From Bacteroidota bacterium (GTDB lineage: Bacteria; Bacteroidota; Bacteroidia; Bacteroidales; WCHB1-69), in NCBI GenBank assembly GCA_029570835.1, contig JAKPTX010000168.1:1-50024 (forward strand): 50,024 nt of DNA, written 5' to 3'. The notes beneath the pieces were generated by a model, which saw nothing but the letters and a program-made list of their open reading frames with translations, did not search any database and was not told where the DNA came from. Of the stretch, positions 7,547 through 50,024 are shown piece by piece. A program made the position numbers and the translations under genes. The first letter of the stretch is position 1, and every line of letters begins with the position of its first letter.

Positions 7547-7590
7547 ATTTTATTGATTATTAAAGGGTTGGTTTTATTGATTTAGATTTA

Positions 7591-7598
7591 CAAATATA
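7591..7598 (-). promoter_or_regulatory. Predicted -7 box for prs (TATATTTG)
   Basis: Exact match to the Bacteroidota consensus TAnnTTTG, in the right orientation and about 45 bases before the prs start. No clear -33 TTG at the expected distance. Confidence 0.55.
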
Positions 7599-7632
7599 CG
7601 AAGATTTTTTACATTTTCTCGAAAAATATCAT

Positions 7633-7640
7633 TATTTTTG
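7633..7640 (+). promoter_or_regulatory. Predicted -7 box for the subtilase operon (TATTTTTG)
   Basis: Exact TAnnTTTG match. The predicted transcript would begin near 7646, which favours the ATG at 7682 over the TTG at 7649. Confidence 0.55.
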
Positions 7641-7681
7641 CATATTGATTGGTAAACTATTATTTAACCTTTGTTAAGATT

Positions 7682-9379
7682 ATGAAAAGAGTAGCTTTTA
7701 TTTTTCTCTCAATATTCTTTTTACTACCATTATTTGCACAATCTCCTGCAAAATATTGGGTTCAATTCAAGGATAAAAAAGGGACTCCCTATACCATTGA
7801 ACAGCCACTCCGGTTTTTGTCGCAAGCAGCACTGGATCGAAGAGCAAAGTATAATATTCAAATCACTGAGCAGGATCTGCCTGTCAATCCGGCTTATATT
7901 GAGGAAGTGCTTAAACTGGACAGCAATATGCTCTTGATGACTCGCTCTAAATGGTTAAACGGAATTACAATCTACTCTGAAGTTGAAAATATTGAAGAAT
8001 TAATCCGAGAGTTAAGTTTTGTAATTGATTGTGAGAGAACGATTCCAATGGAAGAGAAAGAGGAGATTATCACCGATCCTTTCTTTTTTAACAATGAAGA
8101 AAATGTTGCTCCCCAAATTGATATTCCTGATGACCTTGATTATGGGCAAGGAACAGAACAGATTAGAATTAACAATACCCATTGGCTTCACCGTTTGGGA
8201 TTCAAAGGAGAGGGTATCAAAATGATGTTATTGGATGGGGGGTTTCTAAATACAGATACCATTCGTCACTTTGAACTGCTTAGATCACAAAACAGACTGA
8301 GAGGTGCAAGACATTACGCACAACTGGGAGCTAACCCTTTTGGTGCAGGATCACACGGAACTATGGTACTGGCTACTATCGCCTCCTATTTACCCGGAGA
8401 ACTGGTTGGCTCAGCACCCGGAGTAACGGTATGGTTGGCACAAACAGAAGATGGAAGAAGTGAAAATAAAATCGAAGAAGATAATTGGGTAGTAGGTGCT
8501 GAATGGGCTGATAGCTTGGGGGTTCAAGTGATCAACTCTTCATTGGGATATTCTAAATTTGACGACACTACCAAAACTCGAACTTATGCTGAGATGGATG
8601 GGAAACACAGTAGGGCCTCTATTGCAGCTTCCTATTTAGCTTCTAAAGGAATAATTTTGTGTAACAGTATGGGGAATGATGGAAACAAACCGTGGAAATA
8701 TTTAACTTCTCCCGCAGAAGCAGAAGACATTTTGGCCGTTGGGGGTGTCAATATTGAAGGGAAAAGAGCCCCTTTTAGTTCGTATGGTCCAACTTCAGAC
8801 GGTAGAATTAAACCGGATGCTGTAGCTGTAGGATGGAATACTTACGTTGCTAACCAAAGAGGAATAACACTCCGTTCAAATGGGACATCCTTTTCCTCTC
8901 CCATTATGGCAGGAATGGTTGCCTGTTTGTGGCAAGCTTTCCCTGAAAAAAATGCTTTTGAAATCATGGAAGCTGTTCGTTTGAGTGGGGATCAAGTGCA
9001 TGCACCGGACAGCTCCTTGGGATATGGAATTACCGACCTTCTCAAAGCATACAATATTTTACTTCAAAAAGATATTTCTAAAATTAATATTGACCTCGAA
9101 ACTTACGCTGTATCTAAAAATCAAGTTACTCTCTTAATAGAAGTTGACAAACCTACTGATATTGTTGTAGTCAGTAATTTGAAGTCTAAACCTGAGACAA
9201 AAGTGAGCAAAAAAATAACACTGAAACCCGGAAAAAACAAAATCGAAATAAAAACACCCAAATTGGCTAAGAAAAATAAATATGACTTCATTGACTTAAT
9301 GATCCTTGAAGAAGAGGGCAACACTCTGTTATCTCAATTTGTTGTGGGGTATGAAAAATTACAAAAAAATAAAAAATAA
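7682..9379 (+). CDS. Secreted subtilisin-like serine protease (S8 family)
   Basis: 565 residues from the ATG at 7682, which begins a clear signal peptide (MKRVAFIFLSIFFLLPLFAQ). An in-frame TTG 33 bases upstream would bury it and lies almost on the predicted transcription start. The catalytic triad is D185 in LLDGGF, H225 in GSHGTMV and S403 in GTSFSSPIMAG, with the oxyanion-hole region NSMGNDGN near 335. The region before the triad (about 20-160) resembles an inhibitory prodomain region seen in Bacteroidota S8 proteins. The C-terminal ~100 residues form a beta-rich, Lys-rich domain without the motifs of a type IX secretion sorting domain, so periplasmic or surface location is open. Two lipoprotein genes follow closely on the same strand, suggesting a shared transcript. 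Confidence 0.92.
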   Translation: MKRVAFIFLSIFFLLPLFAQSPAKYWVQFKDKKGTPYTIEQPLRFLSQAALDRRAKYNIQITEQDLPVNPAYIEEVLKLDSNMLLMTRSKWLNGITIYSEVENIEELIRELSFVIDCERTIPMEEKEEIITDPFFFNNEENVAPQIDIPDDLDYGQGTEQIRINNTHWLHRLGFKGEGIKMMLLDGGFLNTDTIRHFELLRSQNRLRGARHYAQLGANPFGAGSHGTMVLATIASYLPGELVGSAPGVTVWLAQTEDGRSENKIEEDNWVVGAEWADSLGVQVINSSLGYSKFDDTTKTRTYAEMDGKHSRASIAASYLASKGIILCNSMGNDGNKPWKYLTSPAEAEDILAVGGVNIEGKRAPFSSYGPTSDGRIKPDAVAVGWNTYVANQRGITLRSNGTSFSSPIMAGMVACLWQAFPEKNAFEIMEAVRLSGDQVHAPDSSLGYGITDLLKAYNILLQKDISKINIDLETYAVSKNQVTLLIEVDKPTDIVVVSNLKSKPETKVSKKITLKPGKNKIEIKTPKLAKKNKYDFIDLMILEEEGNTLLSQFVVGYEKLQKNKK

Positions 9380-16021: not shown

Positions 16022-16645
16022 ATGATTATCAAAATATATCCCGAAAACCCCAATCCCAGAGCAGTCCAACAAGTGGTGGATTGCCTGCAATCCGGAGGTG
16101 TCATCATTTATCCGACTGATACCATCTACGGAATTGGGTGTGATATCTATAATGCCAAAGCGATCGAAAGGATCGTTCAAATTCAGGGAGATCACAAGAA
16201 AAAGGCATCTATGTCCTTCATTTGCCACGACTTAAGCCATCTTTCCGTTTACACAACCCCCATCAATAATACAATTTTTAAAGCTATGCGCCGTGCATTG
16301 CCGGGTCCCTTTACTTTTATCCTCAATGCCAGTAATATAGTGCCTAAAATCATTCATGGCTCTAAGAAAACAGTCGGTATTCGTGTGCCTGACAACAACA
16401 TTATCCGCGAAATCGTGAGAGTGAACGGCAATCCCATTCTCTCAACTTCAGTTAAAGATGATGATGATGTGATTGAGTACACCACTGACCCTGAATTGAT
16501 TCATGAAGCGTATGGTGATCTCGTTGATATTGTGATCGACGGAGGTTATGGTGACAATGTTCCCTCTACTGTGGTTGATTGTACCAGTGGGGAAATTGAG
16601 GTCATCCGTGAAGGTAAGGGAGATTTAGACCTTTTATTTGGATAG
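16022..16645 (+). CDS. Sua5/YciO/YrdC-family protein (threonylcarbamoyl-AMP synthase-like)
   Basis: 207 residues comprising a single YrdC-fold domain. N-terminal GGVIIYPTDTIYGIGCDIYN, then KKKASMSFICHDLSHLS, the ALPGPFTFIL motif and GIRVPDN are all family signatures. TsaC/Sua5 enzymes make threonylcarbamoyl-AMP from Thr, bicarbonate and ATP for the t6A37 tRNA modification. The MSFICHDLS wording is closer to the YciO subgroup, whose role in t6A is less certain, so no symbol is given. It lies 18 bases after the SRP RNA and may rely partly on read-through from its promoter. Confidence 0.88.
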   Translation: MIIKIYPENPNPRAVQQVVDCLQSGGVIIYPTDTIYGIGCDIYNAKAIERIVQIQGDHKKKASMSFICHDLSHLSVYTTPINNTIFKAMRRALPGPFTFILNASNIVPKIIHGSKKTVGIRVPDNNIIREIVRVNGNPILSTSVKDDDDVIEYTTDPELIHEAYGDLVDIVIDGGYGDNVPSTVVDCTSGEIEVIREGKGDLDLLFG

Positions 16646-16803
16646 TTTTCTTTTTCTTTATTTTTTAATAAAAAAAAGGGGGAGGAAATCCGCCACTTCT
16701 AGAAATTTATTATACAACTAATTGAATATTAGACTCTTTGCAAGTAGTTGGTGCTGATTTATTATACATTGTTTTAAATCCCCATTTATTCGAAAATAAT
16801 TTA

Positions 16804-16811
16804 TAACTTTG
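16804..16811 (+). promoter_or_regulatory. Predicted -7 box for the MORN-repeat gene (TAACTTTG)
   Basis: Exact TAnnTTTG match 41 bases before the ATG at 16853. Confidence 0.55.
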
Positions 16812-16852
16812 CAGATTACATTTATTTTATTTTAATAGAACAAAATATCAAC

Positions 16853-19800
16853 ATGAAAAAATCCACTTCCCTTTTCATAGTCATTATGATACTATCAAGC
16901 GTTATATCGTACGGACAGAAAACCAAACAACTAAAACAGATTAATTCTCAATCTATTATCGAAGAGGGTGTGCGACTGCATGATCAAGGAAAGTATGATG
17001 AGGCGATCCAACTTTACAAACAGATCCCGATCAGCGATTCGCTTTATATTTTAGCTCAATATGAGATAGCTTATGCCAACTTTGTTAATGAAAAGTATAA
17101 AGAAGCATTAATGGTTGCAGAACCACTACGTCGAAAATATGATGATCATGTCAGAATGAGTTCCATCTACGCACTGATTGGTTCCTCATACTTAAATTTG
17201 AAAGTTTACGATCAGGGAATTGAAGTTGTCAATGAGGGATTAACTTACCTACCATACAGTGTTCGCCTTTATCTGACTCTAGGAACTCTTTACAGTGGAA
17301 AAGAGGCTTACAAGGAGGCTGAACTCGCTTTTAAAAATGCTCTGTTTTGTACTCCTTCCTCTCAAATTACTCACTTTAGATTAGGAGAAGTATTCATCCA
17401 ACAAGGCCGAACAATCCCTGCTATTTTAGCACTCAACTATGCGGTTTTTCTCAATCCTAAAACTGAAATTGCCATCTTTGCTATCCAAAAACTACAACAA
17501 TACTACAATAGTTTTTCCGAAGATACAGACAATTTTCCCACACGTCCGATGGAAGATGCTGAGTTAATTGGTGAATGGGAACAATTCAGCGAACTTGAAT
17601 TTTGGGTTAAATCGGAAGTTGCCCTGAAAAGAAACTTTCATAAAAAATCTAAAATTAGACATAATGTTAATTCACAAAACCAATTGGTTTTTGAAAACCT
17701 CCCTGAACCCTCCTCATCTAAGGACGTAATTCAATTTCTATATATCCCCTTCTTTAGGCAGATTATGCAAGATCGTGAATTCAGTCTCTATGCCCACTAC
17801 TTCTTCTCCGGCACCGATCTGGAAGAAGGAAAAATAGAGAAAAAAGCCCAAAAGATGAGTAAAAAGATTGATAAAATGGTTAGCAAAGGGATCGACTTTT
17901 TGAAGGAGAGGATCTCTCGTGGAATAGGAGTACCGGATGAGCTCCCCCCTTTAAGACAATTTGAATATAATTATGAAAATGGACTCATTCAAGGTGTCGG
18001 AGGATACACTCAAAAAAATGGATCAGGGGAATCTATGTATAATGGGAATTGGCAGATTATCAATGATGATGGTGGAATCACAGCGGAACTCAACCTCAAC
18101 AATGATATAAGAAATGGTGTCTCTACATTTTATTATCACGGTGAAAAACAACAAGTTGTCCCTTACCTGAATGGGAAGGTGGATGGTACTGCCTGGGTTT
18201 ACTTTCCTGACCTTGGACTGGAAAAACAACCTCTTCGAATCAGTATCGAGTTCAAAAATGACAATTTGGAAGGCGTAAGAAAAGAGTATAACCGCTATGG
18301 TGTACTGATAGAAGAAGCACACTATAAAAACGACCTTCTTCATGGAGAAAAACTAAACTATTCTTCAACCGGCTTATTGTACTCTAAAGGAGAGTTAGAG
18401 AAAGGAAACTATGTCGGAGAATATATAGAATACTTCCCTAATGGAGAAAAATCATTAGAGTGTTATTACGGAAAAGAGGATGAAGAGGGTATGTTCCGCA
18501 GTTACTATCCTGACGGAAAACTATATAAAGAAGCAACTATCATAAATGAAGCCTTTAACGGAGTTGCTAAAACGTACTATCCAAACGGAAAATTAAGCAG
18601 TGTCGGATCCTATATCGGAGGAGAGTTAGATGGATTTTGGACAGGATATTACCCTAATGGAGCAGTCAGTGATGAAGTTAGCTATAATTATGGAGTTTAT
18701 AATGGCACCTCCTCTTTTTATTCCCCAAATGGATTCCTCTATAGTCAAACTCAGTACAATGAGGGAGTAATTACTAAGATTACTACTTACCTCCCCAATA
18801 AAGAGATTAGAAAAGAGTATACCGGAGATCTTTTAAAGGGAGATATTGAAATTTACAATGAATATGGACAGTTGACGAAGAAATACAGATGTAATGAAAA
18901 AGGTCAGGAAGAGGGAGTTACAACCTTTTATTATCCTACCGGAAAAATCAAAAGAACAATTCCCTACGTAGAGGGAGAACCTCATGGGGAAAATAGGGAG
19001 TATTATCCCAATGGAAATCTTAAAGCTTATCGCCGGTTTAACAAAGGAGAGTTTGACGGATTACAAATATATTATCATATTAATGACTCCATAGAATCTG
19101 AAGGATATATGCAAAATGGAAATAAAGTGGGTTCCTGGTATTGGTATAACCTGGATGGTTCTCTTTCACACCATGAAGAACATAAAAATGAATCTGTTGT
19201 ATACACTGCACTCTATTATCCATCCGGATCACTTCGAGAGGAGTATTTTTACGACCTCAATGGAACTCTTGTTAAACATGTTATTTATAATCACTTAGGA
19301 GAAGTTTTACACACTAATCAATTCCAAAATGGGGAAGGAACAATGGAAAACTATTATCTCAATGGAACACTTCTTTCCAGTGGGAAATATCGCTACAATA
19401 AAAACAGTGATTCTACTACCTTTTATGATATTGATGGAAAGGAACTGTTCGAAATACCCTATTTGAATGGAGAAATGCATGGAATAATAACCTCTTCTAC
19501 TCCCGAAGATCCATATTACAAAGCTGAATTACCTTATCTGTTCGGAAAGCAACATGGAACTGTTAAAGTGTACGACAATCGGGTATTAGTCAGAGAGATC
19601 AATTACGAACATGGTTCTAAAAGCGGGGCTAGAATAAACTACTATCCCAACGGAAAAATTCGCTCAACTGTTCCATATATAAATGATGTCGAAGAAGGTG
19701 AAGGATTCTGTTATGGTGATGACGGGAAAACCGTACTGGTTGGTTATCATTATTTATATGGAGATCTCATAGCTGTCGCTCAACAAAAAAAGGATCAGAA

Positions 19801-26969: not shown

Positions 26970-29111
26970 TTATCGTAATTGCATCTCTTTGATCAGATTC
27001 TGAGCATTGGCGTAGTAATCAATGATATAAAGGATATATCTCACGTCCACGCTAATATTTCGACACTGATTGACATCATAATAGAGGTCGCTCATAGTTC
27101 CCTCCCACATGCGGTCAAAGTTGATTCCTACCAATTCCCCATTGCCATTCAAAATCGGACTTCCGGAATTACCGCCTGTAGTATGGTTAGCCGCAATGAA
27201 AGCCACTCTCAGATTACCCTCTTTGTCAGCATATTTTCCAAAATCCCTCTTCAAAAGCAACTCTTTCAAACGCGCATCCAATTGATAATCAAAGTGATCC
27301 GGATCCTCTTTTTGCAAAATTCCATCTGAAGTAGTATAAGGTAAATAATAAATCCCGTCAATAGGTGCAATGCCCAACATTTTGCCATAAGCAACGCGCA
27401 TGGTCAGGTTGGCATCGGGGAAAAGTACGCGCTCCGGCTCAACATCCATCAAACACTGTAAATAGAGCTTGTAATATTGATCTAAATTAGCATTAATAGG
27501 TGGAATTTGATTGTTTTGCAATTCACGATGCGCTGCCAATGCATCTTTAAAGAGTTGATTATTATTCAACCAACGCTCTAACTTTTTAATCTTTTTTGCA
27601 CTCAAATAATTTACAAACTGCTCAAATTGCTCTTGAGACGAAAAAACAGAACGCTCATACAATTCTTCACTTAGCACCTTTAAAGTAGGTAAAGAGACAG
27701 CATAATAATCTTTTATTGCATCAGGAATCTGATCTTGAGGCATAACATTAAAATAATGGTGCAACAAAGCTACAAAAATCTCTTTATCGATCGGTTTGTA
27801 GAAAGAGGGATAAAAACCTTTGGAGAGTGCCAACAATTTCTCTTTTGTCATTTCCATAGTGCCTATTTCCTGACTTTCAAGAATATTGCGTACTTTTTCT
27901 ACAAAACCCGGTAACTCCACTGCGGTAAAGGTTTCCCTTAAATAAGCAGCCTGGTACTCTAACTGTTTAGACTTACTGTATTCACTTTCAATATCTTGCA
28001 GCAATGTACCATATTTGGAATTCCACGTCGGATTTTGCTTAATCTTCTCATGAAGCGCTTTTTCCTGTTGCTTTTTCACCTCAATTACATTGGAGTTTTG
28101 GATTCCTTGGTTTTCACCAATCCATTTCTTCCAACCATTGGAAATAGAGTTAGCCTTTGCAGCGTACATCAAACGAAGTTCTGCCGATTCAGCCATATAT
28201 TTCTTCATGATATCCAAACGTTTACCTCGTTGGGTAATCGCCGGCGGATTTCTATAGTTCACAACCAAATCCACCCCGTCAGAAGTATAATATTGCATGG
28301 TTCTCCCCGGATAACCTATAACCATCGTAAAATCACCTTCTTCAATTCCTTTTGTTGAGATAGGCAAAAAATGGGGGGAGTTCATGGGAATATTCTCCTT
28401 GGAATAGGCAGCAGGTTCTCCATTAGGTGCTGTATAGATGCGGTACAGAGAAAAATCTCCGGTATGACGAGGCCAAACCCAATTGTCCGTATCCCCACCA
28501 AACTTACCGATTGTTTCGGGAGGAGTTCCTACCAAACGCACATCGGAATAAACCTTGTAAATGTACATATAGTATTGATTCCCGTAATATAAAGGTTTTA
28601 TATTGACCCGATATTTACCCTCTTCACTACTCTCTTTGATTAATTGTTCTATATTGGTTGCAATTTGGATATCCTGTTTATTTTGATCACTTTTTAAATC
28701 TACGTCTTTCATTACTGCTTCGGTTACATCTTCCATTCTAACCAAAAACGAAACCTCTAAACCCGCGCAATGAATCTCCTCTTCATAACTTTGAGCCCAA
28801 AAACCATCATGCAGATAGTTGTTTTCCATCGTGCTATATCGTTGAATGTAGGAGTATCCACAATGGTGATTAGTTAGTAACAAGCCGTTTGGAGAGATCA
28901 ATTCTGCAGTACAGCCTCTCCCAAAAAGTACCACAGCATCTTTTAAGCCGGAATGGTTGATACTGTATATATCCTCGGCAGTCAGCTTAAAGCCCATTTG
29001 TTGCATTTCTGCTTCATTTTTTTGCAATAACAGAGGAACCCACATACCACCATCGGCAAGGGCATAGAGAAATAAAGATAAAAAACCGATTAAAAATAGT
29101 ACTCTTTTCAT
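26970..29111 (-). CDS. dpp11: Dipeptidyl-peptidase 11 (S46 family, Asp/Glu-specific)
   Basis: 713 residues with a signal peptide (about 1-19). The S46 signature is plain: LLTNHHCGY with catalytic H83, GGDTDNWVWPRHTGDFSLYRIY carrying the Asp, and GGNSGSP with S649. The specificity residue is R667 in the GINFDRMWEG motif, exactly 18 residues after the catalytic Ser, as R673 follows S655 in Porphyromonas gingivalis DPP11; DPP7 has Gly there. The enzyme should release N-terminal dipeptides with Asp or Glu in P1 in the periplasm, feeding amino acid fermentation. A TATCTTTG box lies 30 bases upstream. Confidence 0.95.
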   Translation of the reverse strand: MKRVLFLIGFLSLFLYALADGGMWVPLLLQKNEAEMQQMGFKLTAEDIYSINHSGLKDAVVLFGRGCTAELISPNGLLLTNHHCGYSYIQRYSTMENNYLHDGFWAQSYEEEIHCAGLEVSFLVRMEDVTEAVMKDVDLKSDQNKQDIQIATNIEQLIKESSEEGKYRVNIKPLYYGNQYYMYIYKVYSDVRLVGTPPETIGKFGGDTDNWVWPRHTGDFSLYRIYTAPNGEPAAYSKENIPMNSPHFLPISTKGIEEGDFTMVIGYPGRTMQYYTSDGVDLVVNYRNPPAITQRGKRLDIMKKYMAESAELRLMYAAKANSISNGWKKWIGENQGIQNSNVIEVKKQQEKALHEKIKQNPTWNSKYGTLLQDIESEYSKSKQLEYQAAYLRETFTAVELPGFVEKVRNILESQEIGTMEMTKEKLLALSKGFYPSFYKPIDKEIFVALLHHYFNVMPQDQIPDAIKDYYAVSLPTLKVLSEELYERSVFSSQEQFEQFVNYLSAKKIKKLERWLNNNQLFKDALAAHRELQNNQIPPINANLDQYYKLYLQCLMDVEPERVLFPDANLTMRVAYGKMLGIAPIDGIYYLPYTTSDGILQKEDPDHFDYQLDARLKELLLKRDFGKYADKEGNLRVAFIAANHTTGGNSGSPILNGNGELVGINFDRMWEGTMSDLYYDVNQCRNISVDVRYILYIIDYYANAQNLIKEMQLR

Positions 29112-42892: not shown

Positions 42893-42950
42893 CCAGAGTG
42901 GGGAGACAGAATAACTGAAGAGGAATGCCTATTCTGCCCCCCTTTTTTTT
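42893..42950 (+). terminator. G-run/C-run hairpin element, copy C (intrinsic terminator)
   Basis: CCAGAGTGGGG, then CAGAATA (42907-42913) pairing perfectly with TATTCTG (42930-42936), then CCCCCC and a run of eight or more T. A strong intrinsic terminator for the plus-strand genes, located between convergent units. Confidence 0.8.
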
Positions 42951-43006
42951 TATATTTCATAAAAACAGAAAAATCAAAAATTATAAAACCCTGAAGAGGC
43001 ACCCAA

Positions 43007-44029
43007 TCATTTGTTTCCCTTAATGTAATATTCTCCTTTAATCTCCTTATTATCAATCTTTTGTCGGGTTTCCATTTCTACTTTTTGGGTTTCTTCATCA
43101 CTTCCCCAATGTTCTACTATTTCCTGAACAAAATTCCAACCATCTTCCAGAAATGAAAATTTGAGTTTGATTTTAAAATCTTCCCAGGTTTCGGAATAGC
43201 CGATTGCTTTTCTATTTTTGTTAATCTGTTTAATGTTTTCAGGTGGATAAATAAAAAGAGTTTCTCCTATGATAATATGATGTCCATAATCATCTCCATA
43301 TTGTATCGTTGGTTCTACGCTTAAAAACATTTTTCTATTGGCTTGACACTCATCATACATCCTTATAAAAACTCTAACATCAAGATTCCCTTTTTTCACT
43401 TCTTCCTTTAACAAATCAAATGGTAACTCAATCAAATTCTCTTTACTATTGTGTCCTAATACGAGCGAAATTGAATGATGAAAATAGGGAGCACAGTTTT
43501 CATTAATGGTACCAAACTCTTTATACAAAGAAATAATCCTCTCTAAATTAATAGAATCAGTTAATAGAATTTGTCTTCTATCCTCTTCGGTATAACTGAA
43601 CTTGCCTAACCTAACAGATTGGTCCAAATTACGAATAGCTTGCAAACTATCGATGAGAGGCTGTATAATGGTTGTTTGAGTTGTATCCTTAATAGTCTGA
43701 AGCGTATTATATAACTCTCTATTTTCCTCAAATCCATCAATATAGAGTTCACCTCGTTGAGCAAGGAGATGAGCTTGCTTAATGATTACATTTTCATCTC
43801 CTACATGATGTTCTCGATATAAGTAGAAGTAATAATAAATATCTCTTATGAAGGGATCCTTCTCTTGAAAAGCTTTCTCTAAAAACAGAGCGGCTTTTTT
43901 ATGGTTTCCTTTACAATACTCCAGTTCCGCTTTATTCACATATTTGTAATATTTTTTTACATTATTTTGCCCAAACAGACAAATTGTAAAAATCAATAAT
44001 GAGGCAAGTAAAACAAATCTTTTTTTCAT
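43007..44029 (-). CDS. Secreted DUF6624-like TPR protein (third copy in operon)
   Basis: 340 residues with a signal peptide (ending in CLFGQ, about residue 20) and a TPR-like hairpin (about 27-60, AELEYCKGNHKKAALFLEKAFQ). The middle region follows the DUF6624 pattern: LQAIRNLDQSVR near 130, a DSINLERIISLYKEFG segment near 158, and an FIRMYDECQANRKMF...IQYGDD segment where family members usually end in a QYGTQ motif. The DUF6624 assignment is from pattern memory. It is the last gene of the five-gene operon and starts 33 bases after an S41 peptidase gene. No catalytic residues are known for this family, so its role is open. Confidence 0.6.
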   Translation of the reverse strand: MKKRFVLLASLLIFTICLFGQNNVKKYYKYVNKAELEYCKGNHKKAALFLEKAFQEKDPFIRDIYYYFYLYREHHVGDENVIIKQAHLLAQRGELYIDGFEENRELYNTLQTIKDTTQTTIIQPLIDSLQAIRNLDQSVRLGKFSYTEEDRRQILLTDSINLERIISLYKEFGTINENCAPYFHHSISLVLGHNSKENLIELPFDLLKEEVKKGNLDVRVFIRMYDECQANRKMFLSVEPTIQYGDDYGHHIIIGETLFIYPPENIKQINKNRKAIGYSETWEDFKIKLKFSFLEDGWNFVQEIVEHWGSDEETQKVEMETRQKIDNKEIKGEYYIKGNK

Positions 44030-44062
44030 AATTCATTGTATTAAAAGTTCTTTTTCATTTTT

Positions 44063-45595
44063 TTATTCCAACTCCAATACCTTCTTAAATCCGGTATCAT
44101 ATTGGTACAAAAACTCTTTGCTTTTCATATTATAAACAGATCTAGGATAAAGTATTTCCTCTTCAAATGTAGGTGCAATTTCAATTTCTGTGTAGTCCTG
44201 GTAAATATCTTCCGGTTTGGTTGCGTTATAAATATCCATAATACAAGTCAAGCGAAATGTAAATTTGGAATATTTAAGTTGGAACACTTGTGGCATGAGC
44301 CCAAAACCAACCATCTTTCCGGTTGGTGAACCTACGGAAACAACCTGCTCAACCTCATTTGCAAATCGCACCAAAGAAAAACCGGCGGAATAAGTATTGC
44401 GATTGCTCAAAACATATATTTTTTTGTCATATCCGATTGAATTGCTGTCCGGAACGATTAACATTTCAGAATTTATAATCCCATAAATTTTGTTATCTAA
44501 AAATGGGATTTTTTCGTACGAAATAATATTTTTATAACTTTGAAACTTTTTTCGTATGATTTTTGAATCACAAAAGGCTAATTTTGTTGAATAATGAATG
44601 GTATCCTTCACAATAGCAGAGATCACATTCATCCAAACATAATCAGAACCACCCTCATTGTCCCTTACATCAATAATTACCTTATCAATAATATTATTCT
44701 TGCCAACCTCTTTGATCTGTGAATAAAACTCCTCATTATCCCCTGTCATCGTACTCAAACAGATGTACAAAATCTGATCTTCCTGAAAATAAGAAACTTG
44801 ATTATTGGATTTATCAAGGTTTAGATCTTTATTAGGTATCCCTTCCAACACTATAGGCACAACCTGAACTACAACATGTCCTGGATATTGATTAAAAGAA
44901 AACTCCATTATTTCCCCATTTTGTTCCGCTTTAACTCTTGCAGTTTTAGGTATGTAAACACCCCATTTATCCCCATAATAAAACCTTTTGTTTTTGATGT
45001 CAAAATAACATTTTTTCAGTAAATGATTAGTAACATAAGTGTTCATTTCTTCTCCATCAACTGATAAAACCTTCATTAAAGTAATGTTCAACGTATCGCC
45101 ATTTTCACCAATCAACTGATGATTTCCCCTAATAAAAAAACTATTGTTATAATAGATAGCACCATCCCAAAAAGTATTCCACTTCTTCCTTTTTTCCATG
45201 AGGTATTCCATACTTTTATAATAGGCTTGTCTGGCTTGGATAGCATAAATATCTATAGATTCCAAATTTTCAAAATCGGGGTATACATCAAAAGTCTCAT
45301 AAGAATGACCATCCATTACCCATTCTAATACACTGTTTAACAGATCGTTAAACGAATCATTATCCATTATGGTATCAATCTGACTTCGCATAGCCCGCAT
45401 CATCGCCAACTGATCCAATCCGGTCACCTTTTGTCTGACAAGTAATTGAGGATTTCCATCCTCTATAATTTTGATCAGCTGATCAAAATCGCGATACATC
45501 TGTTTTTTTGTTAATTTTTCAAAAGGATTTTCCAGCTGAGCAAAACAACTTAAACTCAATGTCAGTATAAAGATTATTATAATTTTAGCTTTCAT
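44063..45595 (-). CDS. Secreted S41-family (C-terminal-processing-like) peptidase, Ser/Lys form
   Basis: 510 residues with a signal peptide (ending LSCFAQ, about residue 19). The N-terminal region KLTKKQMYRDFDQLIKIIEDGNP... is shared with the next S41 protein. The peptidase core has VIIDVRDNEGGSDYVW near 325 and the nucleophile S403 in NRNTYSAGFS, with K427 24 residues later in GSPTGKMVGFG. In CtpA/Prc enzymes the Ser-Lys dyad is 25 residues apart, so a Ser/Lys mechanism is plausible. No PDZ domain is obvious. The C terminus is FKKVLELE, identical to its paralogue. It sits between two DUF6624-like genes and may process or degrade their products or a shared substrate. Confidence 0.85.
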   Translation of the reverse strand: MKAKIIIIFILTLSLSCFAQLENPFEKLTKKQMYRDFDQLIKIIEDGNPQLLVRQKVTGLDQLAMMRAMRSQIDTIMDNDSFNDLLNSVLEWVMDGHSYETFDVYPDFENLESIDIYAIQARQAYYKSMEYLMEKRKKWNTFWDGAIYYNNSFFIRGNHQLIGENGDTLNITLMKVLSVDGEEMNTYVTNHLLKKCYFDIKNKRFYYGDKWGVYIPKTARVKAEQNGEIMEFSFNQYPGHVVVQVVPIVLEGIPNKDLNLDKSNNQVSYFQEDQILYICLSTMTGDNEEFYSQIKEVGKNNIIDKVIIDVRDNEGGSDYVWMNVISAIVKDTIHYSTKLAFCDSKIIRKKFQSYKNIISYEKIPFLDNKIYGIINSEMLIVPDSNSIGYDKKIYVLSNRNTYSAGFSLVRFANEVEQVVSVGSPTGKMVGFGLMPQVFQLKYSKFTFRLTCIMDIYNATKPEDIYQDYTEIEIAPTFEEEILYPRSVYNMKSKEFLYQYDTGFKKVLELE

Positions 45596-45610
45596 ATTCG
45601 TTCACATTAT

Positions 45611-47221
45611 TTATTCCAACTCCAACACTTTTTTAAAAACATAATCATAGTTGATCATAAAATCATAAGATCTTTTATCCAAGATCAATCCATAATCCAT
45701 ATATTTAAACATTTCTTTTAATGTTGGTGATACAATCATTTCAGGAATATCTTGAAAAACATCCTCCGGATTTTGAACTTTTGTTAGATCAATTGCTGTT
45801 TCAAATTGAAAAGTAAATTTTGAATTTTTGAGTTGAAAATTCCATGGATTTAATCCAAAACCTGCGATATGCCCTGTTGGTACACCAATAGAAATAAGAT
45901 TAGAATCTTGTCTAGCCAGTGAAGTCATTGAATGAGCAGCAGAATATGTATTTTCGTTTTGAATGATGTATATTTTACCTTTATAATTCAATGAATTAGA
46001 ATCAGGGATTATATATTTGTACTGTTGTTCTCTGACAATCATTTTTTTCCAATTCAAAGTGGGAATAACTTGACTATGATATTTACCGGTAACATGAGTA
46101 GGATATTCAGTTGTAAAAAAATGGATACATTGTTCATTATCATTTAAGGCTAAAGTTGAAAGCCATTTTATAGTATCCGATACAATGACCGATAACATAT
46201 CTTGCCAAAAATCATCTCCTCCTCCATAATTATCTCTTAGGTCAATAATTACTTTATCGATTTTCTTATTTTTTCCTACATTTTTAATTTCATCTATAAA
46301 TAGATTGGTAGCATCCCACATTTCATCAGTGTAAATGTACAAAATTCGTTCTTTCGGATAGTATTCAACAACTTTATTTCTTGAAAGTTTTTTGTTCTCC
46401 AAGTAAAAATAAATATTTTCATTAATCAAAGAATCACTACATCCCGATATAATGAAATTATAGTCATTGAGATTGAGTAGATATTGCTTATTACTATTGG
46501 GATCATATAATAAGATTGTATCCTCACAAGTAATTGATAGATTAGTTGTATAATATTTTCTATTTTGAAAATCCCATTTAATTTCACTAGGTTCTAAGTG
46601 ACCAAATTTTAAATATACTAATGAATCAATAGGAAGACTATTACATGAAAGTATTTTAAAATCACTCAAATAAAGAGTGTCTTCTTTTGAAATTTTGTTA
46701 ATTAATGTGTACTGTCCATGTGCGTAGTAATCTCCGTTGAAGTAATAGTCCATAAAAGGACTAAATTTATTCCTTTTTCGATACTCTTGAGCTTTTCCTT
46801 CCTTGTATATGTTATATTGCGACTCAATTTCTTTAAAATAAGTTGAATCATAAAAACTCTGCCCGGGCATATATCTTGGTTCTTCTACAACATAATAACC
46901 TACTGTCCTTCTTGCATGTATATCCAAAGTTTTATTTAAACAACGGGTCATTAAATCAAAAAACTCCCAATAGTTGTTGATTTCATCAATTTTTTCTCTC
47001 TCTATTAAAATTTCGTTTATCATGTCATACCCTGTAACCATTTTCCTGACTTCAATTTGAGCATTGAAATCTTTGACATAGGCTACAAACTGGTCAAAAT
47101 CTTCATACATCTGTTCTTTCGTCATCTTGACCGGTGGTTTAGGAACTTTAATTTTTCCTTTTTGGGCAAATGAAGTGAATCCTAAGCACAGGATAACGAT
47201 GCAAATTAAAACTTTTTTCAT
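45611..47221 (-). CDS. Secreted S41-family peptidase paralogue, Ser/His form
   Basis: 536 residues with a signal peptide (ending TSFAQ, about residue 20), then the same N-terminal region as the 44063-45595 protein (KMTKEQMYEDFDQFVAYVKDFN). The peptidase core keeps VIIDLRDNYGGGDDFW near 330 and S427 in NENTYSAAHS, but the residue 24 later is H451 (GVPTGHIAGFG) where the paralogue has Lys. This points to a changed general base or loss of activity. The C-terminal FKKVLELE is identical to the paralogue. It starts four bases after the DUF6624 gene before it and ends 15 bases before the next S41 gene, so the two came from a tandem duplication. Confidence 0.85.
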   Translation of the reverse strand: MKKVLICIVILCLGFTSFAQKGKIKVPKPPVKMTKEQMYEDFDQFVAYVKDFNAQIEVRKMVTGYDMINEILIEREKIDEINNYWEFFDLMTRCLNKTLDIHARRTVGYYVVEEPRYMPGQSFYDSTYFKEIESQYNIYKEGKAQEYRKRNKFSPFMDYYFNGDYYAHGQYTLINKISKEDTLYLSDFKILSCNSLPIDSLVYLKFGHLEPSEIKWDFQNRKYYTTNLSITCEDTILLYDPNSNKQYLLNLNDYNFIISGCSDSLINENIYFYLENKKLSRNKVVEYYPKERILYIYTDEMWDATNLFIDEIKNVGKNKKIDKVIIDLRDNYGGGDDFWQDMLSVIVSDTIKWLSTLALNDNEQCIHFFTTEYPTHVTGKYHSQVIPTLNWKKMIVREQQYKYIIPDSNSLNYKGKIYIIQNENTYSAAHSMTSLARQDSNLISIGVPTGHIAGFGLNPWNFQLKNSKFTFQFETAIDLTKVQNPEDVFQDIPEMIVSPTLKEMFKYMDYGLILDKRSYDFMINYDYVFKKVLELE

Positions 47222-47225
47222 ATCC

Positions 47226-48185
47226 TTACCTTACTATATTATACTTGCCCATATACTCTTCAACAGTCGTATCAAATTTCATCTCTGCTCTGCGAAGATT
47301 TACATTCTTTTCATCTTCAATCGGACGAAGTTGCTTGTAACTTGTTTTGGTTTTTTCATCGGTTTTCCATTGGTATTGAGTTCCATACATTTGTTTTTTA
47401 CCGAAAAGAACTAAAAACCGATCTTTAAAGACTGCATAAGAGGTCGGATCAAACTGTCCATTTTTGAATTGAGTTTCAATCGCATCCATTTCAGTTTTGG
47501 AAATCACAACCTTGTGTAGTAAAAAATAAGCAAACTCTTCACAGTATCTTCCTGCATAATGCTCAATTGGGAACCTTTTGGAATTCAAAATCTCAATAAA
47601 ACTCCCGGTATATTTTCTGGAATGGTCAAGTAAAAGGGTATCAAATTTATCTCCTTGAAAAAACTGATATTCATCTACTTTCTCAAAATCTGTAGAAGGT
47701 AATTCCAACAAATCCTTAAAATCACCATAAAGGGAATAATCAATAGACAAATAAAAGAGCCTTAATGCCTGAGCAGTATCAACGACCCCTTCTTGTGATT
47801 CTATAAATTTATTTTCAATCTTTCTTTTGATTTGCTTCCATTCCGGAGTAGTTTTTATTACATCCGTGAAAGCTCCGTCCACCAAAACCAATCGGTCATC
47901 ATTGGATTTATCCACATAATAATTAAGAAATTTAAACATCAAATCAAGCTTTCCCAATTTGGCATAATTGACCGCAATTTGATAAAACGATTCAATAGAG
48001 CCTGAAGTTTCAAGTGTTCTAAAATGATCAACCAATGAGGAGTCATATTGCCCCCTCTTTTGATAATCATCTCTGGAAATCACTTTCGGATTAGTATATT
48101 TTGCATAAGGAACAACATCCGATTTTTGGGAATACAAAAGAGGCAGAGCACTCAAAATAAGCAAGAACAACACGATTTTTTTCAT
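47226..48185 (-). CDS. Secreted DUF6624 protein (second copy in operon)
   Basis: 319 residues with a signal peptide (ending LPLLYSQ, about residue 20) and a TPR-like helical part (about 55-125). The C-terminal third has the clearest DUF6624 signature in the window: GKKQMYGTQYQW near 264 and LRPIEDEKNVNLRRAEMKF...VEEY at the end. Family members occur as secreted or lipid-anchored proteins in Bacteroidota; no activity is established that I can cite. Its stop codon is four bases before the S41 paralogue, the tightest spacing in the operon. Confidence 0.75.
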   Translation of the reverse strand: MKKIVLFLLILSALPLLYSQKSDVVPYAKYTNPKVISRDDYQKRGQYDSSLVDHFRTLETSGSIESFYQIAVNYAKLGKLDLMFKFLNYYVDKSNDDRLVLVDGAFTDVIKTTPEWKQIKRKIENKFIESQEGVVDTAQALRLFYLSIDYSLYGDFKDLLELPSTDFEKVDEYQFFQGDKFDTLLLDHSRKYTGSFIEILNSKRFPIEHYAGRYCEEFAYFLLHKVVISKTEMDAIETQFKNGQFDPTSYAVFKDRFLVLFGKKQMYGTQYQWKTDEKTKTSYKQLRPIEDEKNVNLRRAEMKFDTTVEEYMGKYNIVR

Positions 48186-48257
48186 GATTTATTTTTTTTA
48201 ATAAACGTTATTTAAAGACTCTTTATTTTCTCCCCAAAAAATATTTTCAATTCACAA

Positions 48258-49175
48258 TCAATAGGTTATGAAAATAGTATTGGGTTTCACTACTTTTTGA
48301 TCCAATGGAGGTAATCCTACATTTTTTCTTCTTTGATTCACCAATGCGGTATCCGGATTAGCCTTTCTGCCGTTATCGTCAAACTCACCATAATAACTGT
48401 ACTCATCACGGGCAAAAATTACACAACGATCGTAAGTCCTTGTATAAGCTTCAACATCAGAATATCCATTAATCAAACTTTGCCTTTCGATAGGTTCAAT
48501 ATAAGTGAGCCAAAATTCAGGATAGGCACTAAAAATATGTCGACCAACGATAAAATATGCCCAGCCCCCATACCTAAACGGATTAGGCATATCGGGATTC
48601 TTATTAATAATTTCAACTATTTTCACCATATTCAAAGAATCGGTATACATTAAAATATTTTTTCTACAAGAATTGGGGTATTGTGTATCAAAGTTTCTTG
48701 CCAATTGATCCGCTTCATTCATTGCCCTAAACTCTCTCATTAAATAGAGCTCGTCATAAGAATACAGCTTCCCAAAATTCTCTTTATACTCCTCCATCTT
48801 ACTCATATACAACGATGTATCTGCAGCAAAGTACTTTTTCCTATAAAGACGTCCAAAACTTTCAACATCCATTCTTTTTGAATAAAATGCTTTATCATAA
48901 TAGACTACTGCACTATCATATTGCTGATATTCAGCATAAATATCTGCAATATTAATATACACGGCTGACTTACTCCTTTCATCTGCGATTGGAAAACTCA
49001 ATACATCATAATACAATTGAATCGCATTTTTATAATTATCTTTGTCATAAGAATAATCATAAGCTATTTTATTTATTTTATAAAAATTGATAATCGAATC
49101 GGGTAAAATCAACTCTTGTGAATAAGAGTTAAGTACCCAAAAAGAACAGAATAGAATGAATGTTATTTTTTTCAT
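48258..49175 (-). CDS. Secreted DUF6624-like TPR protein (first copy in operon)
   Basis: 305 residues from the ATG at 49175, which gives a normal signal peptide (MKKITFILFCSFWVLNSYSQ). A start 60 bases upstream lies beyond the predicted -7 box at 49196-49203 and is rejected. TPR units occupy about 25-110 (KNAIQLYYDVLS, YQQYDSAVVYYDKAF). The C-terminal part is DUF6624-like: YTRTYDRCVIFARDEYSYYGEFDDNG near 246, then NQRRKNVGLPPLDQ, a close match to the family ending. It begins the five-gene operon; the following gene starts 72 bases after its stop codon. Confidence 0.7.
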   Translation of the reverse strand: MKKITFILFCSFWVLNSYSQELILPDSIINFYKINKIAYDYSYDKDNYKNAIQLYYDVLSFPIADERSKSAVYINIADIYAEYQQYDSAVVYYDKAFYSKRMDVESFGRLYRKKYFAADTSLYMSKMEEYKENFGKLYSYDELYLMREFRAMNEADQLARNFDTQYPNSCRKNILMYTDSLNMVKIVEIINKNPDMPNPFRYGGWAYFIVGRHIFSAYPEFWLTYIEPIERQSLINGYSDVEAYTRTYDRCVIFARDEYSYYGEFDDNGRKANPDTALVNQRRKNVGLPPLDQKVVKPNTIFITY

Positions 49176-49195
49176 ATTACAGATTTTACACGATG

Positions 49196-49203
49196 CAAAT
49201 GTA
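49196..49203 (-). promoter_or_regulatory. Predicted -7 box for the DUF6624/S41 operon (TACATTTG)
   Basis: Exact TAnnTTTG match on the minus strand, 20 bases before the ATG at 49175. It supports that start codon and the operon boundary. Confidence 0.55.
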
Positions 49204-49795: not shown

Positions 49796-49873
49796 ATTAC
49801 ATCAATTGCCACGTCTCTTTAGGGCGTGGATTGGAATTACCCCCTGGAACCCAAGGGCTTTAGCCCAAATTTA
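49796..49873 (-). repeat. Twin-hairpin intergenic repeat, copy 2
   Basis: Inverted relative to copy 1 at 24710-24786, with the same two ends. The second hairpin has 7-bp arms at 49809-49815 and 49823-49829, different in sequence from copy 1 but still paired. Confidence 0.7.
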
Positions 49874-49964
49874 CAAAACATGAAATAAGAAGTTAGAAAT
49901 ATGAAATACGCTACATCATATCATATCACACTGATAGTCAATTAAATAATTCTAAATTTAAGAT

Positions 49965-49986
49965 TCCGAAATCCGAAATCCGAAAT
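49965..49986 (+). repeat. TCCGAAA heptamer array
   Basis: Three tandem 7-nt units of TCCGAAA. Confidence 0.8.
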
Positions 49987-49993
49987 GTTTTTG

Positions 49994-50001
49994 TATTTTT
50001 G
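49994..50001 (+). promoter_or_regulatory. Predicted -7 box for a gene beyond the window (TATTTTTG)
   Basis: Exact TAnnTTTG match 23 bases from the right edge; its gene is not in view. Confidence 0.4.
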
Positions 50002-50024
50002 TTGCGTAAATTAGATGTTAGATA

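Follow-up and report, generated by a model that had tools for sequence, protein, structure and literature searches.

Near one end of the window, a 50,024-nucleotide stretch of DNA from a Bacteroidota bacterium of the order Bacteroidales (contig JAKPTX010000168.1), lie five genes, g1 to g5, that encode two S41 peptidases (g3 and g4) and three proteins resembling the DUF6624 family (g1, g2 and g5) (Table 1). All five frames are intact and lie on the minus strand, with gaps of 72, 4, 15 and 33 bases between g1 and g2, g2 and g3, g3 and g4, and g4 and g5, so the open reading frame coordinates confirm the layout described in an earlier note on this DNA. Signal peptides had been assigned to all five proteins, and, judged by eye, each does have a signal-peptide-like start, ending in YSQ (g1 and g2), FAQ (g3 and g4) or FGQ (g5). 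What the earlier note had overlooked is that many relatives of both kinds of protein stand in clusters for modified peptides with a GG-type leader.

Table 1. Genes of the S41/DUF6624-like operon and the sequence in front of it, in window positions
Feature	Coordinates	Strand	Description
g1	48258..49175	-	305 amino acids (aa), probably exported; weak TPR matches, DUF6624-like C half
g2	47226..48185	-	319 aa, probably exported; DUF6624, sub-threshold Pfam match
g3	45611..47221	-	536 aa, S41 peptidase; predicted catalytic H102, S427, D487
g4	44063..45595	-	510 aa, S41 peptidase; predicted catalytic H97, S403, D463
g5	43007..44029	-	340 aa, probably exported DUF6624-like protein
-7 box-like TACATTTGC	49195..49203	-	19 bases upstream of the g1 ATG; suggestive only

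A -7 box had also been placed in front of the operon. The sequence TACATTTGC is indeed there, but the window contains 13 copies of TANNTTTGC, where chance alone predicts 10.2, so a single match is no more than suggestive. At least 13 matches were seen in 26 of 100 shuffles. The match before g1 is the single occurrence to the right of 36.7 kb.

Both g3 and g4 are S41 peptidases, as had been proposed: they scored 44.3 and 59.1 bits, respectively, with PF03572 (Peptidase_S41; cut-off, 24) and are 34% identical to each other. Across 37 aligned S41 family sequences, the catalytic His was present in 37, the Ser in 36 (a sequence from locus L149 has Tyr) and the acidic residue, Asp or Glu, in 37. All three are retained in g3 and g4, and the sequence at the Ser of the window proteins reads NTYSAAH or NTYSAGF. 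The predicted catalytic pattern of both proteins is therefore His/Ser, with His rather than Lys as the base. Classical C-terminal processing peptidases use Ser/Lys. With TIGR00225, g3 scored 11.7 bits and g4 scored 16.1 bits against a cut-off of 218.6, which places both outside the Prc/CtpA group. The best solved-structure matches of the S41 profile were uncharacterised or putative peptidases (4ghn, E 3.5e-16; 8vcb, 1.1e-10; 4l8k, 9.5e-7).

The FKKVLELE end common to g3 and g4, noted earlier, is real. However, KVLELE or KVLELK forms the C terminus of 11 of the 37 aligned family members, counting g3 and g4, and the shared end therefore does not point to a recent duplication. In a tree of the same 37 sequences, g3 grouped with L152 and L031 (100/99), both from peptide clusters, and g4 grouped with one gene of L146 (96/93). 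Both genes of L147, together with L148, joined the g4-L146 pair in a group of five rows (100/99); the 21 kb of L148 contain no peptide gene. Since g3 and g4 fall in separate groups, they are not a local duplication and appear to derive from two separate S41 lineages, and the idea that the operon expanded by local duplication fails for this pair.

For g1, g2 and g5, the description "DUF6624-like" held, and family membership did not. The Pfam cut-off for PF20329 (DUF6624) is 27 bits, and g2 alone among the five proteins matched it, at 19.1 bits. In the same scan g1 gave weak TPR matches and g5 chance-level matches only, neither matching PF20329, and DUF6624 was absent from the Pfam matches of eight g5-family members at E 0.05. 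Profile-profile comparison nevertheless joined the g5 family to DUF6624 (99.4%, E 1e-21), the g1 pair to DUF6624 (97.2%, E 3.9e-11) and the g1 pair to the g5 family (98.1%); the one control, S41 against DUF6624, reached 16%, confined to the signal peptide. We call the proteins DUF6624-like rather than family members because they miss the Pfam cut-off but show homology at the level of profiles. By profile comparison and shared motif positions, g1 and g5 appear to be remote relatives of DUF6624. An alignment of 41 DUF6624-like sequences had one Arg in every row and an Asp-Gln pair, a His, an Asp and a Tyr-Gly pair in at least 90%; in g5 numbering, H193 is near-invariant and R273 invariant. The motif residues are D136-Q137, H193, D226, Y244-G245 and R273 in g5; D156-Q157, H213, D249, Y262-G263 and R283 in g1; and D255-R256, Q265, Y267-G268 and R298-R299 in g2, where the conserved family His is displaced by one alignment position. 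A search of solved structures with the DUF6624 profile returned chance-level matches only (best E, 0.027).

Relatives of g4 were present in 15 of 99 genomes (its own counted) and at 43 loci of our named collection (L numbers). We examined the surroundings, searching 6 kb of flank, of the 33 named loci whose S41 member scored 250 bits or more; among them, L150 and L155 are places on a single contig, and L149 and L154 are two contigs of a single metagenome-assembled genome (MAG). A radical S-adenosylmethionine (rSAM) maturase, C39 exporter or ATP-grasp gene lay within 6 kb at 10 of the 33 (L146, L147, L150, L152, L156, L160, L162, L172, L175 and L176), and profiles for these peptide genes matched none of 18 control stretches of 18.5 kb. 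The only match that a broader S41 profile produced in those controls was weak (E 0.00087). The rSAM gene stood directly upstream of the S41 gene at L150, L156, L160 and L172 and also at the relatives L031, L037, L038 and L039. At L037, L038, L150, L160 and L172, the S41 gene lay directly between the rSAM maturase and C39 exporter genes. A GG-type frame, an rSAM gene, an S41 gene and a C39 exporter gene were found at L031, L037 and L038, and the first three of these at L039. These GG frames are precursors as judged by eye, and none of the four tested passed an NCBIfam cut-off; because the crude pattern also occurs in 5 of the 18 controls, such frames carry no weight alone. Among the matches listed for the rSAM proteins, no equivalog cut-off was passed, and the SPASM domain model was passed by three of four.

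Among 247 genomes of the order, g5-like genes occurred in six others, and five of these six loci had peptide genes: ATP-grasp and SPASM at L133, L135 and L136 and a C39 exporter at L131 and L129, with none at L134. S41 genes adjoin the g5-like gene at L131 and L129 and encode distant family members (29-60 bits). Across the phylum the g5 profile matched in 51 of 345 genomes (its own counted). The best 20 places outside its own genome included two with ATP-grasp and SPASM (L254 and L255) and one with a C39 exporter (L261), 25-bit ATP-grasp matches in L261 and L263 being left out; at L251 and L252 a GG frame immediately preceded the g5-like gene. PF20329 itself was found in 21 of the 247 genomes and the g2 profile in 39 of 393, the window's own genome counted in both; the respective match was not recovered in L239 and L322. 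Relatives of g1 were found in 14 of the 247 genomes, again with its own, and beyond that genome only a fragment in G033 had an E value below 1e-4.

These counts do not bear out a general adjacency of the two families, which the earlier note had proposed as a check on its idea of a new system. An S41 gene was present at 1 of 23 DUF6624 loci outside the own genome (L132), at none of the 20 g5-profile loci and in none of 12 further g2-profile stretches. DUF6624 as a whole lies mostly outside peptide clusters and seldom beside S41, and the association is limited to a subset. The two kinds of protein do occur together, in the window operon and also at L147, L131, L129, L033 and a locus on contigs C126 and C74 of the same genome, so that what survives of the proposed system is a combination found more than once whose members are rarely neighbours in general.

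L147, from a Bacteroidales MAG, joins most of these elements, with peptide genes and two S41 genes on one strand. Its first cluster contains an 82-aa GG-leader frame, a g2 homologue, ATP-grasp and SPASM genes, pieces of a C39 exporter gene and the two S41 genes, both of which carry the same C-terminal motif. The g2 homologue is 32% identical to g2 over 258 positions and exceeds the PF20329 cut-off of 27 with 54.7 bits; the ATP-grasp scored 237.8 bits with TIGR04192 (cut-off, 230) and the SPASM protein 295.7 bits with TIGR04193 (cut-off, 175). Farther on lie an rSAM gene, a distant S41 gene, an intact C39 exporter gene, a g5-like frame and a second ATP-grasp gene. The broken exporter gene occupies two frames at 7567-7942 of this locus, and the intact one, before the g5-like frame, spans 16471-18717.

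A g5-like or g2-like gene stood directly before the ATP-grasp gene at L127, L133, L135, L136 and L147, and between a GG frame and the ATP-grasp gene at L127, L133 and L147. At L033, which came from a search other than that of the 247 genomes for g1, a g1 homologue (37% identical) directly precedes an S41 gene. L161 has an S41 gene, a distant S41 gene and, at the contig end, the start of a g5-like frame (weak match, E 9e-6). Near g5-like genes of two peptide loci we also saw aspartic-protease-like frames, retropepsin-like by eye, at L126 (8665-9612; no Pfam match) and L131 (14409-15590). Related proteins of about 500 aa were encoded in the C39 exporter loci L129 (12741-14309), L131 (16321-17943) and L261 (7091-8605); by eye they resemble fusions of vitamin K epoxide reductase and thioredoxin, and perhaps they serve disulfide formation in peptides.

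The window's genome (277 contigs, 95% complete) has a peptide cluster of its own. Its contigs C126 and C74 are probably adjacent, since their ends have 141 identical bases in common. Their joint order is a distant S41 gene, an aspartic-protease-like frame (by eye; no Pfam match), an RDD protein, a first g5-like gene, an FGE-like protein, an 87-aa GG frame, a second g5-like gene, ATP-grasp, SPASM, C39 exporter, HlyD and a TolC-like frame (by eye). The first g5-like protein is 30% identical to g5 and the second 69-70%. The ATP-grasp scored 218.5 bits with TIGR04192, just under the cut-off of 230, and the SPASM protein 276.9 bits with TIGR04193, above the cut-off of 175. Searches of the genome found one full C39 exporter gene and one such ATP-grasp gene, both on C74 beside the g5-like copies. 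No close radical-SAM RiPP (ribosomally synthesized and posttranslationally modified peptide) maturase was found in this genome, a search yielding two weak matches (best E, 5.4e-6; 23% identity). The dN/dS ratio of g5 against its C74 paralogue, a single pair, was 0.19, and by this estimate g5 appears to be under purifying selection relative to that paralogue.

We tentatively read the operon, with a little less than even confidence, as a stand-alone envelope accessory set of the kind found in Bacteroidota GG-leader modified-peptide clusters, by which we mean grasp-with-spasm graspetides and radical-SAM/SPASM RiPPs, and as most likely protective. The products of g1 to g5 would be exported through their signal peptides. 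In the periplasm, g3 and g4 would cut one or more exported modified peptides, most likely protecting the cell, by analogy with the action of the S41 protein NSR against a lantibiotic, and g1, g2 and g5 may bind or process the same peptide class. The peptide could come from the grasp-with-spasm cluster on C126/C74 or from neighbours. In support we count the peptide genes found at 10 of the 33 S41 loci and at 5 of the 6 g5-like loci of the order against 0 of 18 controls, L147, and the C74 exporter and ATP-grasp; we also count the conserved S41 residues, the tree neighbours of g3 and g4 in peptide clusters, the dN/dS of g5 and the NSR precedent. Such an operon would link an exported DUF6624 family and an S41 subfamily to the peptide natural products of Bacteroidota, and it suggests that the S41/DUF6624-like pair can stand without biosynthetic genes. 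If these sets are protective, they would be a pointer to peptides not yet seen and to what those peptides target, and the function of DUF6624 would become directly testable.

The principal competitor to a protective role is that g3 and g4 are post-export maturation proteases, making a second cut or trim of the C126/C74 peptide in trans, and that the DUF6624-like proteins assist them as chaperones or by tailoring the peptide. We regard this as a real but lesser possibility. It is suggested by the S41 genes lying directly between maturase and exporter genes, by the g5-like or g2-like genes lying between GG frames and ATP-grasp genes, and by the grasp-with-spasm cluster in the same genome. The window set is, however, physically separate from that cluster. 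In the passages of PMC10352776 available to us, C39 exporters accompany GG precursors in Bacteroidales and commonly remove GG leaders. This last point, together with the many S41 copies at loci without peptide genes and the nisin resistance conferred by NSR, an S41 protein with His/Ser, leads us to a slight preference for protection over trimming, and our results do not separate immunity from trimming. A more specific version of protection seems very improbable: an orphan immunity island of three DUF6624-like proteins and two S41 proteases from different peptide-cluster lineages, in which DUF6624 is an extracytoplasmic enzyme that breaks the ester or amide bonds closing the side-chain rings of graspetides, thereby enabling the S41 proteases to destroy the linearised peptide. 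If true, it would give the first function for DUF6624 and a two-step resistance route against cross-linked peptides.

Other observations also count against an accessory set for peptide clusters, and several of them would fit general envelope proteins, for quality control or C-terminal processing, whose co-location with peptide genes is incidental. At 23 of the 33 S41 loci, several on short contigs, no peptide gene lay within 6 kb. ATP-grasp was present at 5 of the 23 DUF6624 loci outside the own genome (L137, L138, L229, L232 and L238), leaving 18 without it, and rSAM or ATP-grasp in 2 of the 12 further g2-profile stretches (L314 and L317). S41 is a broad family, and L033 pairs a g1 homologue with an S41 gene and has no peptide genes in its 16 kb. 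On the S41 tree, the label "peptide cluster" was not clustered: it required 13 changes against a shuffled mean of 11.3, and 474 of 500 shuffles were as low as the observed value. (Among the 15 sequences labelled "none", those of L035, L036 and L153 were judged on flanks truncated on one side, and an HlyD fragment is present at L040.) Peptide-cluster copies and copies lacking such genes are intermixed on the tree, as with L148, a near neighbour of an L147 gene; context therefore does not fix function. We nevertheless consider a general envelope role rather unlikely, given that peptide genes accompany S41 at 10 of 33 loci and g5-like genes at 5 of 6 loci of the order, that all 18 controls lack them, and that S41 genes repeatedly lie directly adjacent to rSAM genes.

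The window's own contents weigh on the same side. It holds no grasp-with-spasm locus in the sense of ATP-grasp, SPASM and precursor together; apart from g1 to g5, its open reading frames of at least 50 aa gave no maturase, exporter, S41 or DUF6624-like profile match; and of the four GG-containing ATG frames of 30-150 aa between 40 and 50 kb, none read like a leader peptide, so that all four were rejected as precursors. Upstream of g1 the contig continues for 849 bases, and further genes may therefore lie beyond its end. We think it improbable that the operon is the remnant of a peptide cluster that has lost its precursor and maturase, or whose remainder lies past that end. In favour of this reading, besides the nearness of the end, the last 175 bases of the contig are repeat-like: they match 49 places in the own genome, their own included, none other over the full stretch, and no overlapping contig end was found there. 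Also in its favour, a near-identical copy of the g5 tail with its downstream flank (190 bases, 97.9%; window 42932-43121) lies at the cut end of contig C81 (L128, 9618-9806), where it represents either a strain variant or an additional copy of recent origin. Against a remnant stand the five intact frames and the purifying selection estimated for g5, and between 49.25 and 50.0 kb only two frames are listed, both with TTG starts and of 85-87 aa.

Besides these last 175 bases (49850-50024), repeat-like intergenic DNA was seen in the window at 42932-42981, and pieces of the window flanks recur on contigs C81 and C126. An intact Peptidase S46 protein is encoded at 26970-29111 (717.5 bits for PF10459). 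A plasmid or phage link was not found, tblastn with g4 giving no match in plasmid and phage collections.

Among known proteins, CtpA, CtpB and Prc belong, like g3 and g4, to the S41 family by sequence, CtpB being among the weaker solved-structure matches of the S41 profile (E 2e-5), but g3 and g4 fall far below the TIGR00225 cut-off and have a predicted base of His, not Lys. The nisin resistance protein NSR, in the parts of the sources seen, is an S41 protein with His98 and Ser236 that cleaves nisin (PMC4698656) and confers nisin resistance (PMC4698656, PMC4828448). Like g3 and g4 it combines a Ser with a His located towards the N terminus, and it is extracytoplasmic and acts on a modified peptide. 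Its TASSAEM motif is lacking in g3 and g4 (NTYSAAH or NTYSAGF), and no chain named NSR was among the 13 solved-structure sequences found by the S41 profile. S41 peptidase genes are conserved in fungal dikaritin RiPP clusters, according to the part of PMC6514808 consulted, and so occur in a RiPP cluster type, but those clusters are eukaryotic and make other peptides. In the titles, abstract openings and passages searched, which left most subscription journals uncovered, we recognised no description of S41 in Bacteroidota radical-SAM or graspetide clusters; in a review of leader proteases (PMC10885120), 12 of 15 "S41" passages were examined, all in the reference list. DUF6624 in graspetide clusters has been noted already, in a passage of PMC13097080. 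The text seen of PMC8939145 describes "cluster 23", proteins of unknown function that are encoded at nearly every graspetide locus of branch 5 (Bacteroidota-type); a His and an Arg are conserved in them, and a signal peptide is present in many. The DUF6624-like family here likewise conserves a His and an Arg (H193 and R273 of g5), and from that text "cluster 23" is probably the DUF6624 family. The DUF6624 part is thus known by association, and the S41 part and the orphan combination were not found described in the literature searched. Grasp-with-spasm clusters (TIGR04192/TIGR04193) share g5-like and g2-like proteins with the window operon, which differs from them in being without a recognisable precursor, ATP-grasp, SPASM or exporter and in having two S41 peptidases.

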